Positions 50,905 to 57,631 of a DNA stretch of 57,922 bases are shown here, in pieces (within the stretch, counting starts at the first letter, position 1; each line of letters begins with the position of its first letter). Where the stretch lies: positions 1 to 57,922 of the forward strand of contig DUOA01000091.1 of assembly GCA_012839095.1 (NCBI GenBank). Direction: 5' to 3'. The notes beneath the pieces are model-generated. The model was not told the DNA's origin, did no database searches, and saw nothing but the letters and a program-made list of their open reading frames with translations. This DNA comes from Clostridiales bacterium (lineage in GTDB: Bacteria > Bacillota > Clostridia > Caldicoprobacterales > DTU083). Position numbers and translations under genes: made by a program.

Positions 50905-51318
50905 ATGGAAATTCCCGGAAGCAAGGAAGCATCAAGAGCAGCATTACGCATGGCACTAACCCGGAATCGTGAGGATGAGAGGGAACTAAAAACGGAAATG
51001 CAAAAACATGGAATTCTTGCCGCTGCTGTAGATTATGGCGGAGAATTTATTCCTTCTATCACCAGGATCATTGAAAGGGCAGTGGTAGCTGCTAAAAGAG
51101 AAGGTTTGATAAAGGATTCTCATGGAGAAGAAGGTGCTGTAGCAGGAGCGGCCCGTGAAGCCTTGTCACAGATTATGCCAAAGGCTCTGGGGTTGAATGT
51201 CGGCGGTAAAATTGGGATTTCCAGAAATCAGGACCATATCTGTGTCGCCCTTTTCTTCGGAATCGGGCTCCTGCATCTGAATGAAGTTGCAATAGGGCTG
51301 GGCCATCGTGTAGTATAG
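50905..51318 (+). CDS. HutP-family RNA-binding protein, without the expected metal-binding histidines
   Basis: A 137-residue protein that aligns by eye with HutP, the Bacillus histidine-activated antiterminator. HGILAAAVDYGGEFIPS, RIIERAVVAAKREGLI, GAAREAL and a closing HICVALFFGIGLL, AIGLGHRVV follow the HutP fold. In Bacillus HutP, His73, His77 and His138 bind Mg with L-histidine; the corresponding places here appear to be Gly, Gly and Asn. So it may bind RNA but not sense histidine the same way. No hut genes are nearby. The next gene, an AroH-CMK fusion, begins 10 bases later. AGGAGGT precedes the ATG. Confidence 0.75.
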   Translation: MEIPGSKEASRAALRMALTRNREDERELKTEMQKHGILAAAVDYGGEFIPSITRIIERAVVAAKREGLIKDSHGEEGAVAGAAREALSQIMPKALGLNVGGKIGISRNQDHICVALFFGIGLLHLNEVAIGLGHRVV

Positions 51319-51328
51319 GAGAGTGGAT

Positions 51329-52342
51329 ATGAAATTTTACGCTTTAAGAGGTGCTACCACTGTTACTAAAAACGATAGAGATGAGATTTTACTGAGAACA
51401 ACAGAGCTGATCAGACAGTTATTGAATGAAAACTCATTGGATTGTAAAGATATAGTCAGTATCATCTTCACTGCCACAAAGGATATTGATGCCGTTTATC
51501 CGGCTGTGGCAGCCAGAAAAATGGGTATGACATCCGTTCCGCTGATGTGCTGCCAGGAAATGGACGTGAAAGGCAGCCTGCCCATGTGTATCCGCGTTAT
51601 GATGCATATCCAGCTGGAGGAAGAGAGAGTGTTAAGTCCTGTATATCTGGAGAAAGCAGTTGTCTTAAGACCAGACATTGCTAAACTGACCATAGCCATA
51701 GATGGGCCTGCGGGAGCCGGAAAAAGCACAGTTGCCAGGCTGCTGGCAAAAAGAATGGGTATTTTGTACCTGGATACAGGCGCCATGTATCGGGCAATGG
51801 CATTAAAGGTATTAAAACAGGGAGGGGATCCCGCCAAACCGGAAGATGTCATTCCCTTACTGGCAGATACCGATATTCAGGTTCAACACGGAAATGGTGA
51901 TCAAACCATAATGCTGGACGGACGAGATGTAACCAGCGAAATCCGGGCCAACAGCGTTTCAAATGCTGCTTCAGATGTGGCTACCATTCCTGAAGTACGC
52001 ATTAAACTGGTGGAACTCCAGCGTGGAATTGCAGAGCAAGTCTCTCTTGTCATGGATGGAAGAGACATCGGTACTCATGTGATGCCGGATGCTGCGCTTA
52101 AGGTTTTTCTTACCGCCGCACCTGAAGAAAGAGCCCGTCGCAGGTGGAAAGAATTAAAGCAGAAGGGAAATCTTAATATTGATTTTGATACTATTTTAAA
52201 TGAAATTATAAAACGGGATGAAAATGACAGCAAGAGAACATATGCCCCGCTGAAAAAAGCGGATGACGCAGTATTGATTGATACCACACAAAAATCTATA
52301 GAACAAGTAGTGGATGAGATTGAAAGCCTGCTGAAGAACTAA
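51329..52342 (+). CDS. Fusion of AroH-type chorismate mutase and cytidylate kinase
   Basis: One 337-residue frame carries two complete enzymes. Residues 1-117 are an AroH chorismate mutase: LRGATTV at the start, ATKDIDAVYPA, MCCQEMDVKGSLPMCIRVMM and VYLEKAVVLRPD hold the active-site Arg, Cys/Glu, Arg and Tyr. Residues 118-337 are CMP kinase: KLTIAIDGPAGAGKST (Walker A), DTGAMYRAMA, MDGRDIGTHV and RDENDSKR. There is no linker: the usual CMK start follows directly after the usual AroH end. ATG at 51329 has AGGAG 7 bases upstream. It links the aromatic pathway and pyrimidine nucleotide supply; plsC follows, as it follows cmk elsewhere. Confidence 0.93.
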   Translation: MKFYALRGATTVTKNDRDEILLRTTELIRQLLNENSLDCKDIVSIIFTATKDIDAVYPAVAARKMGMTSVPLMCCQEMDVKGSLPMCIRVMMHIQLEEERVLSPVYLEKAVVLRPDIAKLTIAIDGPAGAGKSTVARLLAKRMGILYLDTGAMYRAMALKVLKQGGDPAKPEDVIPLLADTDIQVQHGNGDQTIMLDGRDVTSEIRANSVSNAASDVATIPEVRIKLVELQRGIAEQVSLVMDGRDIGTHVMPDAALKVFLTAAPEERARRRWKELKQKGNLNIDFDTILNEIIKRDENDSKRTYAPLKKADDAVLIDTTQKSIEQVVDEIESLLKN

Positions 52343-52356
52343 CGGAGGAAGCGGAT

Positions 52357-52941
52357 TTGTTATACTATATTATTCGTGCTATTCTAGTGCCATTTGTCTA
52401 TCTCCTATTTTGGCCGAAGATCCAGGGTAAGGAGAATTTACCAACTGAAGGAAGTGCCATTATTTTTTCCAACCACACTTCTCTTTTTGATCCCATTGTA
52501 CTTGGCTGCCTTCTGCCCAGAAAAATCTATTTCATGGCAAAACAGGAGCTGTTCCGTATTAAGCCATTCGCACTGTTTATGAAGGGTTTGGGAGCTTTTC
52601 CGGTGAAAAGAGGTACTGCAGATATAAGCGCTGTGAAAACTGCCCTTTATACCCTCAGGAAAGGAGAGGTATTTGGTATTTTTCCGGAAGGAACACGAAG
52701 CCGGGATGGAAACATGCAGCAGTTTACCCATGGCACCGCTGCCATTGCACTAAAATCACGGGCGATTACCGTTCCGGTGGTCATAACAGGCGGATATAGA
52801 TTGTTTCGCCCGATTCAGGTAATTGTAGGTAAGCCGCTGGATTTGGAGAAGTATTATGGAAATAAATCCAATTCCGAATTGCTGGACAAAGTGTCAGAAG
52901 AAATGATGGAAGCTGTGAAATCCTTGGTCCCATTCCAATAA
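52357..52941 (+). CDS. plsC: 1-acyl-sn-glycerol-3-phosphate acyltransferase
   Basis: Membrane-associated enzyme making phosphatidic acid, the substrate for CdsA. HX4D motif NHTSLFD is at 39-45 (His40, Asp45); the phosphate-binding FPEGTRS is near 108, and VPVVITGGYRLF follows. One N-terminal hydrophobic segment (about 5-20) is visible. Length 194 is the compact form. TTG at 52357 has GGAGGAAG 8 bases upstream. In many Clostridia ispH comes next; here a 383-base gap follows. Confidence 0.94.
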   Translation: MLYYIIRAILVPFVYLLFWPKIQGKENLPTEGSAIIFSNHTSLFDPIVLGCLLPRKIYFMAKQELFRIKPFALFMKGLGAFPVKRGTADISAVKTALYTLRKGEVFGIFPEGTRSRDGNMQQFTHGTAAIALKSRAITVPVVITGGYRLFRPIQVIVGKPLDLEKYYGNKSNSELLDKVSEEMMEAVKSLVPFQ

Positions 52942-53324: not shown

Positions 53325-54869
53325 ATGAGCGATATGAAGGATGAAATCATGGAAAAAGATATAGCTGAAACTGCTGTTACACAGCAGGAAGAAGCAGTTT
53401 CGTCCGTGAATGAAGAAAACCAGGCGGCTGTTGATCCGTTGGAGCAAGCTGCCTCTGCTGCCAATGAACAGGAAGAAAATACCGGATCCGTAAGCGAGCA
53501 AGAGCAAGTTGCTGCTGAATCCACCGACGACAAAGAAGAACCTGAAGCAGCACAGGAAGAAGAAGCTGCTCCCGTTATCGAAACAGCCGCTGCTGATGAT
53601 TCAGGAGAGTCAGATGAACCAGACGAAGCAAGTGAGCCGGAAGCGGCAGTCGAACCGGGAGAGCCGGATGAACCTGATTCTGAGAAATCAGATGAATTAC
53701 AAAAAACAGAAGAAGAAGCAAAAGAAGAAACCATGGATGATTTTGATATTGTATCCTTGCATCCCGGACAAATCGTAAAGGGAAAAATTCTCCGGGTTAC
53801 AGAAGATGAGATAATCGTAAATGTCGGATACAAGTCCGATGGAGTTGTTGCCAGAAACGATATCATGCTGGAAGAGGACAAGCCTCTCCCTGAAGTATTT
53901 CATGAAGGCGATGACATTGAGGTGGAAGTAAAAAAAGTGAATGATGGTGAAGGCAACGTTATACTCTCGCAGAAAAATGTAGTCAGGCATCAGGCATGGA
54001 AAGCAATCGAAGAAGCATTCCGAAATAAACAGGAACTAACCGGTATCTGCAAGGAAGTTGTAAAAGGCGGTGTTCTGGCTAATATCAAAGGTTTTTCTGC
54101 ATTTGTTCCCGCTTCACAATTGTCTCTTCGCTACGTAGCCGATCTTACCTCTTTTGTTGGTCAGCGGCTTCGGTTACAGATACTAGAAATAGACAAAAAG
54201 CGAAATAGGGTAGTGGCATCACAAAGGGCTGTTCTGGAGGCAGAAGAAGCTCTGAAAAGACAGCAGGTATGGGACAATATTAAGGAAGGGCAGCTCATAA
54301 GCGGTGAAGTCAAGCGTCTTACCAATTTCGGTGCCTTTGTGGATATTGGTGGTGTTGACGGTCTGATCCACATTTCCGATCTATCCTGGGGTCATATCAA
54401 GAGCCCGAAACAAGTTGTTACTGAAGGGCAGCAGGTTGAAGTTCTGGTACTGTCCGTTGATAAGGAAAACAACAGAATCTCGCTGGGCTACAAGCAAACC
54501 TTGCCTCATCCATGGGACAACATAGAAGAGAAATACCCCGTAGGACAAATCTTCCAGGGAAAAGTGGTACGAATCACCACATTCGGGGCATTTGTTGAAT
54601 TAGAACCGGGAGTAGACGGCTTGGTTCACATCTCCCAAATCTCCGACAAACGGGTAGACAAAGTGGAGGATGTCCTTAAGACCGGTGATATGGTTTCCGT
54701 CAAGGTGCTCAATGTCAAACCTGATGACAAAAGGATTAGTCTCAGCATAAGAGAGGCATTGGAGAAGCCAGAGAAGAAACAGCAGGAGCAGCGGGAAACC
54801 CCTTTTGTAAAAGAGGATATGACTGTTTCCCTGGGCGACTTCTTTCCTGAACTAAATGAAAAAGAGTAA
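53325..54869 (+). CDS. rpsA: 30S ribosomal protein S1-like, four S1 repeats with a long acidic N-terminus
   Basis: A 514-residue RNA-binding protein. S1 repeats lie at about 146-215, 235-300, 322-390 and 407-475. The third and fourth are canonical ([41 protein letters not shown]). The first 140 residues are very rich in Glu, Asp, Ala and Ser with no hydrophobic stretch, so disordered. Typical clostridial S1-like proteins are about 380-400 residues or fused to IspH; here the acidic tail stands where IspH would be. AAGGAGG precedes the ATG by 9 bases, and the strong terminator shows a single-gene unit. Confidence 0.93.
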
Positions 54870-57094: not shown

Positions 57095-57180
57095 TGGTGG
57101 GGGAGGGCGGATTCGAACCACCGAAAGCTGAGCTAACAGATTTACAGTCTGCCCCCTTTGGCCAACTCGGGAACTCCCCC
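57095..57180 (-). tRNA. tRNA-Tyr (GTA)
   Basis: On the minus strand the acceptor GGGGGAG pairs with CTCCCCC; the anticodon stem-loop CAGACTGTAAATCTG gives GTA. A long variable arm marks it as a class II tRNA, as bacterial tRNA-Tyr is. The CCA end is encoded (57095-57097). Confidence 0.93.
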
Positions 57181-57307
57181 ACATGGATATAAAATTGGAT
57201 ATCAGACGCCTAAAAGCGTTTTCAGAGTTCAGATACCGGACTTAGGCAACACTCAGGTCAGCATTACGCAAATTTGACTTCGGATTTCCGGCTTCTGACT
57301 TCATAAA

Positions 57308-57383
57308 TGGTGCCTCGGGGCGGAATCGAACCACCGACACGTAGATTTTCAGTCTACTGCTCTACCGACTGAGCTACCGAGGC
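57308..57383 (-). tRNA. tRNA-Phe (GAA)
   Basis: Minus strand: acceptor GCCTCGG with CCGAGGC, D-arm AGCTCAGTCGGTAGAGC, anticodon loop CTGAAAA giving GAA, T-arm with GGTTCGATTCC. CCA is encoded. A 127-base spacer of unclear content separates it from tRNA-Tyr. Confidence 0.95.
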
Positions 57384-57388
57384 AAAGA

Positions 57389-57465
57389 TGGTGGGCCTTC
57401 AGGGACTCGAACCCCGGACCGACCGGTTATGAGCCGGTTGCTCTAACCAACTGAGCTAAAGGCCC
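57389..57465 (-). tRNA. tRNA with CAT anticodon: Met (elongator) or Ile2
   Basis: Minus strand: acceptor GGGCCTT with AAGGCCC, anticodon loop CTCATAA giving CAT, CCA encoded. It has C4-G69 and C5-G68 pairs, which TilS uses to recognise tRNA-Ile2, and its 5' half resembles Bacillus tRNA-Ile(CAU). Clostridial elongator tRNA-Met can look similar, so identity is left open. The sequence does not look like an initiator tRNA (1-72 is a G-C pair). Confidence 0.9.
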
Positions 57466-57475
57466 TCAGTAAAAA

Positions 57476-57550
57476 TGGTGACCCCTAGGGGATTCGAACC
57501 CCTGTTACCGCCGTGAAAGGGCGGTGTCTTAACCACTTGACCAAGGGGCC
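57476..57550 (-). tRNA. tRNA-Glu (TTC)
   Basis: Minus strand: acceptor GGCCCCT with AGGGGTC (one G-U), anticodon loop CTTTCAC giving TTC, T-arm AGGGGTTCGAATCCCCT, CCA encoded. Confidence 0.95.
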
Positions 57551-57554
57551 ACGC

Positions 57555-57631
57555 TGGTCGGGGCGACAGGATTCGAACCTGCGACCCCCTGGTCCCAAAC
57601 CAGGTGCGCTACCAAACTGCGCCACACCCCG
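57555..57631 (-). tRNA. tRNA-Pro (TGG)
   Basis: Minus strand: acceptor CGGGGTG with CGCCCCG, D-arm GGCGCAGTTTGGTAGCGC, anticodon loop TTTGGGA giving TGG, T-arm with GGTTCGAATCC, CCA encoded. It is the first gene of the operon. Confidence 0.95.

Follow-up and report, generated by a model that had tools for sequence, protein, structure and literature searches.

Genome context of the locus

The window, i.e. the whole stretch of 57,922 nt that was analysed (contig DUOA01000091.1), belongs to the draft genome of a Clostridiales bacterium (2.7 Mb in 169 contigs, 96% complete) and carries an in-frame fusion of an AroH-type chorismate mutase gene with a cytidylate kinase gene (Table 1). The gene order is HutP family, aroH-cmk, plsC-like acyltransferase and S1-domain protein, with 10 nt separating the hutP stop from the ATG of the fused gene and 14 nt separating the fused gene from plsC. 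A gene neighbourhood tyrA-aroF-cmk-rpsA is described in a passage of PMC1173090, and the order seen here, aroH-cmk-plsC-S1, may be related to it. The scan for promoters and terminators gave results close to the level of shuffled sequence, and the Rfam search returned nothing over the gathering scores except five tRNAs near 57 kb, which form a gene cluster at 57098-57631 on the minus strand.

Table 1. Features at and around the fused gene (positions in the window)
Feature	Position	Strand	Remarks
HutP-family gene, directly 5' of the fusion	50905..51318	+	PF09021
Shine-Dalgarno-like AGGAGAG 5' of the ATG	51317..51323	+	Read from sequence; overlaps the hutP stop
Fused aroH-cmk gene	51329..52342	+	337 aa plus stop; both domains over curated cut-offs
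AroH-type chorismate mutase domain (PF07736)	51341..51679	+
GGAGG and, 8 nt on, in-frame GTG (codon 101)	51616..51631	+	Possible internal start; not kept in family relatives
Junction, Ala-Lys (two residues) between the AroH core end and the first CMK strand	51680..51685	+	Without start codon
CMP kinase domain (PF02224)	51692..52333	+	Walker A at residues 126-133
plsC-like acyltransferase, directly 3' of the fusion	52357..52941	+	PF01553
S1-domain protein (rpsA-like)	53325..54869	+	PF00575, four stretches

The AroH half of the fusion is the sole PF07736 match in the source genome and the CMK half the sole PF02224 match over the cut-off. No match to PF01817 (AroQ) was found in this 96% complete draft, and a prephenate dehydratase is present. 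No further CMK or chorismate mutase that would make either half redundant was found, the other PF02224 match reaching only 20 bits over profile positions 3-36, below the cut-off. An annotation by best hit, which would label the protein '(d)CMP kinase', would leave unrecorded the sole chorismate mutase detected in this genome. Seventy-two plasmid records matched the protein, none of them spanning 80% of it.

Domain composition and predicted structure

The frame runs through its 337 residues with zero internal stops. Two Pfam domains were assigned, CM_1 (PF07736; residues 5-117, profile 3-116 of 116, 146.5 bits against a cut-off of 27) and Cytidylate_kin (PF02224; residues 122-335, profile 1-209 of 211, 257.4 bits against a cut-off of 26). 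The NCBIfam models TIGR01796 (AroH; 125.9 bits, cut-off 82) and TIGR00017 ((d)CMP kinase; 252.6 bits, cut-off 135.55) were both matched over their full length. Pfam and NCBIfam together place CMK at about residues 119-335. The complete CMP kinase that the preliminary description placed in the same frame is therefore there, and so is its Walker A motif, expected at about residue 126 and read as GPAGAGKS.

On the AroH side, R7, R63, C74, E77, R89, Y106 and R114 of the fused chain align with residues 7, 63, 75, 78, 90, 108 and 116 of Bacillus subtilis AroH (Arg7, Arg63, Cys75, Glu78, Arg90, Tyr108 and Arg116), which we take to be the active-site residues of that enzyme; all of the Arg, Cys/Glu, Arg and Tyr segments noted earlier are thus present. 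The earlier wording of a complete AroH holds for the Pfam core but not for the C-terminal end, as residues 120-127 of the B. subtilis chain (127 residues) have no counterpart in the fused protein. In the CMK half, next to the Walker A motif, the Arg and Asp residues that bind substrate in CMP kinases (R155, R224, R245, D246, R296 and R303) were invariant in a 14-row alignment.

The junction reads LRPDI-AK-LTIAIDG. As had been stated, no ATG, GTG or TTG is kept there, the nearest in-frame start on the 5' side being the GTG at 51629, 54-57 nt before the first CMK residues.

An AlphaFold2 model of the monomer (alignment of 42 rows) has both folds, with a mean pLDDT of 94.9 and a pTM of 0.78; its lowest block mean pLDDT, 80, falls at residues 111-120. 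By target length, the AroH half of the model matched 1com_C with a TM score of 0.92 and the CMK half matched 2cmk with one of 0.90. B. subtilis AroH is described as a homotrimer in a passage of PMC4865297 and, by analogy, the AroH half should probably still trimerise, so that one particle would combine three AroH sites with as many tethered CMP kinases.

The fusion in the family and order

Among the 61 genomes of the relative set, 30 had an AroH match. In the family of the source genome the fusion was found in all 9 genomes with such a match (its own included), and 4 further genomes had no match. The linker in these family fusions is 2-3 residues long, and the eight other family genomes share the frame at 63-74% identity. 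In the four relatives compared at the DNA level no indel occurs across the junction, and of the variable positions among the 63 columns around it, 19 are third positions of codons, 7 are first positions and 4 are second positions.

In the order, AroH was detected in 23 of 30 genomes, being fused to CMK in 13, encoded separately from it in 9, and joined but interrupted by a TGA inside AroH in 1 (G026). The last locus (L015), whose frame is otherwise joined to CMK and which may represent decay or an assembly error, was left out of the trees and of the fused and split counts. The domain edges of the nine split genomes lie 34-49 nt apart, the aroH stop being located 10 nt past the compared AroH end in seven genomes of family group f2 and 46-52 nt past it in two of f4. 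In one split locus (L005:942-1354, G053) the gap between aroH and cmk contains a 93-nt unit repeated 4.4 times in tandem, with 97% matches.

Recurrence of the fusion in the class and beyond

In the class sample, 87 of 391 genomes had AroH and 84 of these loci were usable, those of G136, G157 and G180 being excluded as short fragments or contig edges. Every one of the 84 has cmk 3' of aroH, in the same orientation and within 1.1 kb; 66 loci have two genes and 18 are fused in frame, the fusions falling in nine family groups (f1, f3, f4, f13, f15, f34, f69, f76 and f79). The two genes are thus otherwise separate neighbours, as the preliminary description held, but the fusion does not stand alone as implied there, since fused frames occur in these nine groups and in one genome outside the class. 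In genus g101, four of the sampled genomes are fused and one is split. When the split loci of class and order are pooled (68 in all), the AroH and CMK domain edges lie 14 to 1086 nt apart, with four spacings above 200 nt.

Outside the class, at least one fusion was found among the matches listed (G644). In the phylum, cmk lies near aroH in 4 of 30 loci, these being the best-scoring 30 of 289 genomes with a match, taken with flanks of about 1.5 kb or in some cases less, so that adjacency outside the class is only thinly covered. The fusions among 80 named loci are those of Anaerotalea alkaliphila and seven Clostridia MAGs, and 59 of the 80 have no aroH in the available flank. Two other AroH-containing frames were also observed: 1) L217:1686-3515 (+) (G611) joins AroH to a class I/II aminotransferase (PF00155), a plausible pathway partner, in one frame of 610 residues. 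2) L218:1497-2381 (+) (G653) joins a type II dehydroquinase (PF01220) to AroH in one open frame, a shikimate-pathway fusion.

A tree of concatenated AroH and CMK domains was built from 119 loci, drawn from the relatives, the class sample, the named records and, in a few cases, the phylum; L178, a repeat of L115, was dropped. Of the 119 loci 34 are fused, a proportion that is not a frequency given this composition. In this tree, made by a 'quick' method with SH-aLRT support alone, there are at least 11 changes between fused and split, which could be fusions or fissions, and 9 of them are forced by starred branches; the split arrangement is the commoner one. For the fused label, only 4 changes are forced by starred branches in a tree of CMK alone, whose 33 rows come mostly from the order. 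One f4 genome (G015) groups with split f2 genomes in the 33-row tree and with split f4 genomes in the 119-locus tree. The linkers of the fused frames range from 2 to 32 residues, a spread that also speaks for separate events, and the fused state apparently arose on several occasions among related bacteria. Two fused frames (L040 and L175) have an ATG and a Shine-Dalgarno-like word at the junction itself, which is what young fusions would show.

The plsC gene on the other side of cmk served as a control. In 95 of the 119 loci a plsC homologue with the orientation of cmk starts between -16 and +203 nt from the cmk stop, and the AroH and CMK domain edges of the split pairs are a median of 64 nt apart, the two distances, one from the stop and one between domain edges, being not quite the same measure. 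No cmk-plsC fusion was found in the 119 loci: 116 CMK frames are complete, and none extends more than 14 residues past the domain. The control is imperfect, since many of the cmk and plsC genes overlap in different reading frames and PlsC is a membrane-bound enzyme. Since plsC is so close to cmk yet was not seen fused to it, proximity alone seems insufficient to explain the recurrence of aroH-cmk, and structural tolerance or selection must matter as well. The constant order of the two genes together with their recurrent fusion amounts to a natural experiment, with replicates, on the conditions under which adjacent genes fuse.

Conservation and absence of the AroH half

R7, R63, R89, Y106 and R114 of AroH, and D125, K132, S133, R155, R224, R245 and D246 of CMK, are invariant in all 34 fused rows. 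The other two aligned AroH residues vary. Among the 34 fused rows, 29 have Glu at position E77 and 18 have Cys at position C74, and among the 85 split rows the numbers are 75 and 65; to judge from these substitutions, some AroH halves may work differently.

CMK without an AroH match was found in G007 (one contig) and G011 of the family and in G023 of the order. In the CMK tree, G007 and G011 nest inside the fused family clade (97/94) and G023 groups with fused f3 genomes (99/96), a placement that makes loss from a fused ancestor the simpler reading. In G023 (L222:2606-3394 (+)) the sequence LEETVLLKPDL stands in frame before CMK and resembles the AroH C-terminus by eye (E 0.59); an AroQ match, but none to the dehydratase, was found in this genome. 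Prephenate dehydratase is present in 22 of the 23 AroH-bearing genomes of the order (the exception is G009, which is fused), and no match to it was found in G007, G011 or G023. The comparison of 22 of 23 with 0 of 3 gives a hypergeometric probability of 0.0015, with G007 and G011 belonging to one genus, so that the three stand for two events. Both AroH and a full CMK are missing from four further genomes (G003, G005, G020 and G024), perhaps because of assembly gaps, and three of the four have the dehydratase. The pattern fits an AroH half that works and is tied to its pathway, with a CMK half able to stand alone.

Proposed function and origin of the fused protein

We consider it probable, at roughly three chances in four, that the gene encodes a modular bifunctional enzyme of a type made repeatedly from a conserved gene pair. 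The N-terminal half would convert chorismate to prephenate as the only chorismate mutase found in the genome, and the C-terminal half would phosphorylate CMP and dCMP as the only full CMP kinase found there. We infer that the direction was fusion rather than fission, i.e. that the aroH stop and the spacer before cmk were lost within the conserved aroH-cmk-plsC order. Such losses would have been kept repeatedly, probably since the C-terminal tail of AroH and the N-terminus of CMK tolerate joining; B. subtilis AroH tolerates C-terminal truncation. In the assembled protein three CMP kinases would hang from the C-termini of an AroH trimer. The two activities are probably independent of each other, and the likeliest benefit, if any, would be a fixed stoichiometry and shared translation.

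The preliminary description had raised a coupling of aromatic synthesis to CMP recycling. In such a case the AroH trimer would scaffold the CMP kinase, or aromatic status and CMP/CTP supply would signal to each other, and AroH-CMK would be a recurrently selected functional pair linking the supply of aromatic amino acids to that of CTP and dCTP. This would explain both the constant position of aroH upstream of cmk (84 of 84 class loci) and the repeated fusion, with 34 aroH-cmk fusions against no cmk-plsC fusion in the same 119 loci even though plsC is near in 95. We regard it as unlikely, however, since two genes are kept in 66 of the 84 class loci, CMK persists alone where AroH is absent (three relatives), the linkers vary in length from 2 to 32 residues, and the plsC control is weakened by the out-of-frame overlaps; to our knowledge, the chorismate mutase and CMP kinase reactions share no metabolite and have no metabolic link.

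The gene might also yield partly two proteins, if the internal GTG at 51629, lying 8 nt behind GGAGG, also gave rise to a separate CMP kinase that bears a short AroH end. An in-frame start with a Shine-Dalgarno-like word at most 90 nt before CMK is present in 10 of the 34 fused loci, including the junction ATG of L040 and L175, but absent from the other 24, which makes such a second product rather improbable. A conserved internal start was rejected: the places differ among the fused loci, just two of the 9 family loci have such a start, the one in the window (at -54) and L023 (at -21), and the GGAGG-GTG pair is not kept in four aligned relatives.

That the AroH half is a catalytically dead remnant, serving as a leader or an oligomerisation tag for the CMP kinase, is very improbable. 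The cmk loci of G007, G011 and G023 (the last with its tail-like stretch) that lack AroH, and the TGA inside AroH of G026, would agree with such decay, but the five AroH residues R7, R63, R89, Y106 and R114 are kept in 34 of 34 fused rows, no other chorismate mutase was found in the genome, and AroH presence tracks prephenate dehydratase in the order. That two adjacent genes were joined artificially in assembly or sequencing, for which the draft state (169 contigs) and the adjoining genes of relatives might speak, is practically out of the question because eight other family genomes have the same junction, with the same frame and a 2-3 residue linker, and because third codon positions vary most across it.

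Comparison with known systems

A literature search, made largely without full texts, found no description of an AroH-CMK fusion, in line with the earlier statement that none was known. Passages of PMC11450739 list a PanC/CMK fusion and passages of PMC9695335 a CMK/Der fusion; the AroH-CMK fusion is absent from the passages of these two papers and of PMC9655631. Chorismate mutase appears in the abstracts of PMC12202928 and PMC10520331 as one half of bifunctional chains with other shikimate-pathway enzymes. The partners in those fusions act in aromatic synthesis, whereas the partner here belongs to pyrimidine nucleotide metabolism.

With monofunctional AroH of the B. subtilis type (TIGR01796; PDB 1com and 1xho), in which the active sites lie between the subunits of a homotrimer, the fused protein shares the whole domain, the fold and the aligned site residues, but it lacks the free C-terminal tail, having a CMP kinase attached instead. 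Likewise, the whole domain of (d)CMP kinase (TIGR00017; PDB 2cmk and 1q3t) is common to both, but the fused CMK has no start of its own and carries AroH on its N-terminus. Bifunctional AroA/cytidylate kinase (NF008816), PanC/CMK (NF010004) and CMK/Der (NF007071) also combine a CMP kinase with another enzyme in one chain. The whole-protein NCBIfam scores for these three are all far below the cut-offs (190.5 against 943, 259.2 against 524 and 185 against 953, respectively), and the NF008816 match is limited to profile positions 435-651 of 662, leaving the EPSP synthase half unmatched. NF008816 has an aromatic-pathway enzyme on the N-terminal side of CMK, as does aroH-cmk, the partner being AroA there and AroH here. 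CMK fusions are therefore a kind already catalogued in NCBIfam (AroA-CMK, PanC-CMK and CMK-Der), of which the fusion with AroH as the partner is a variant.
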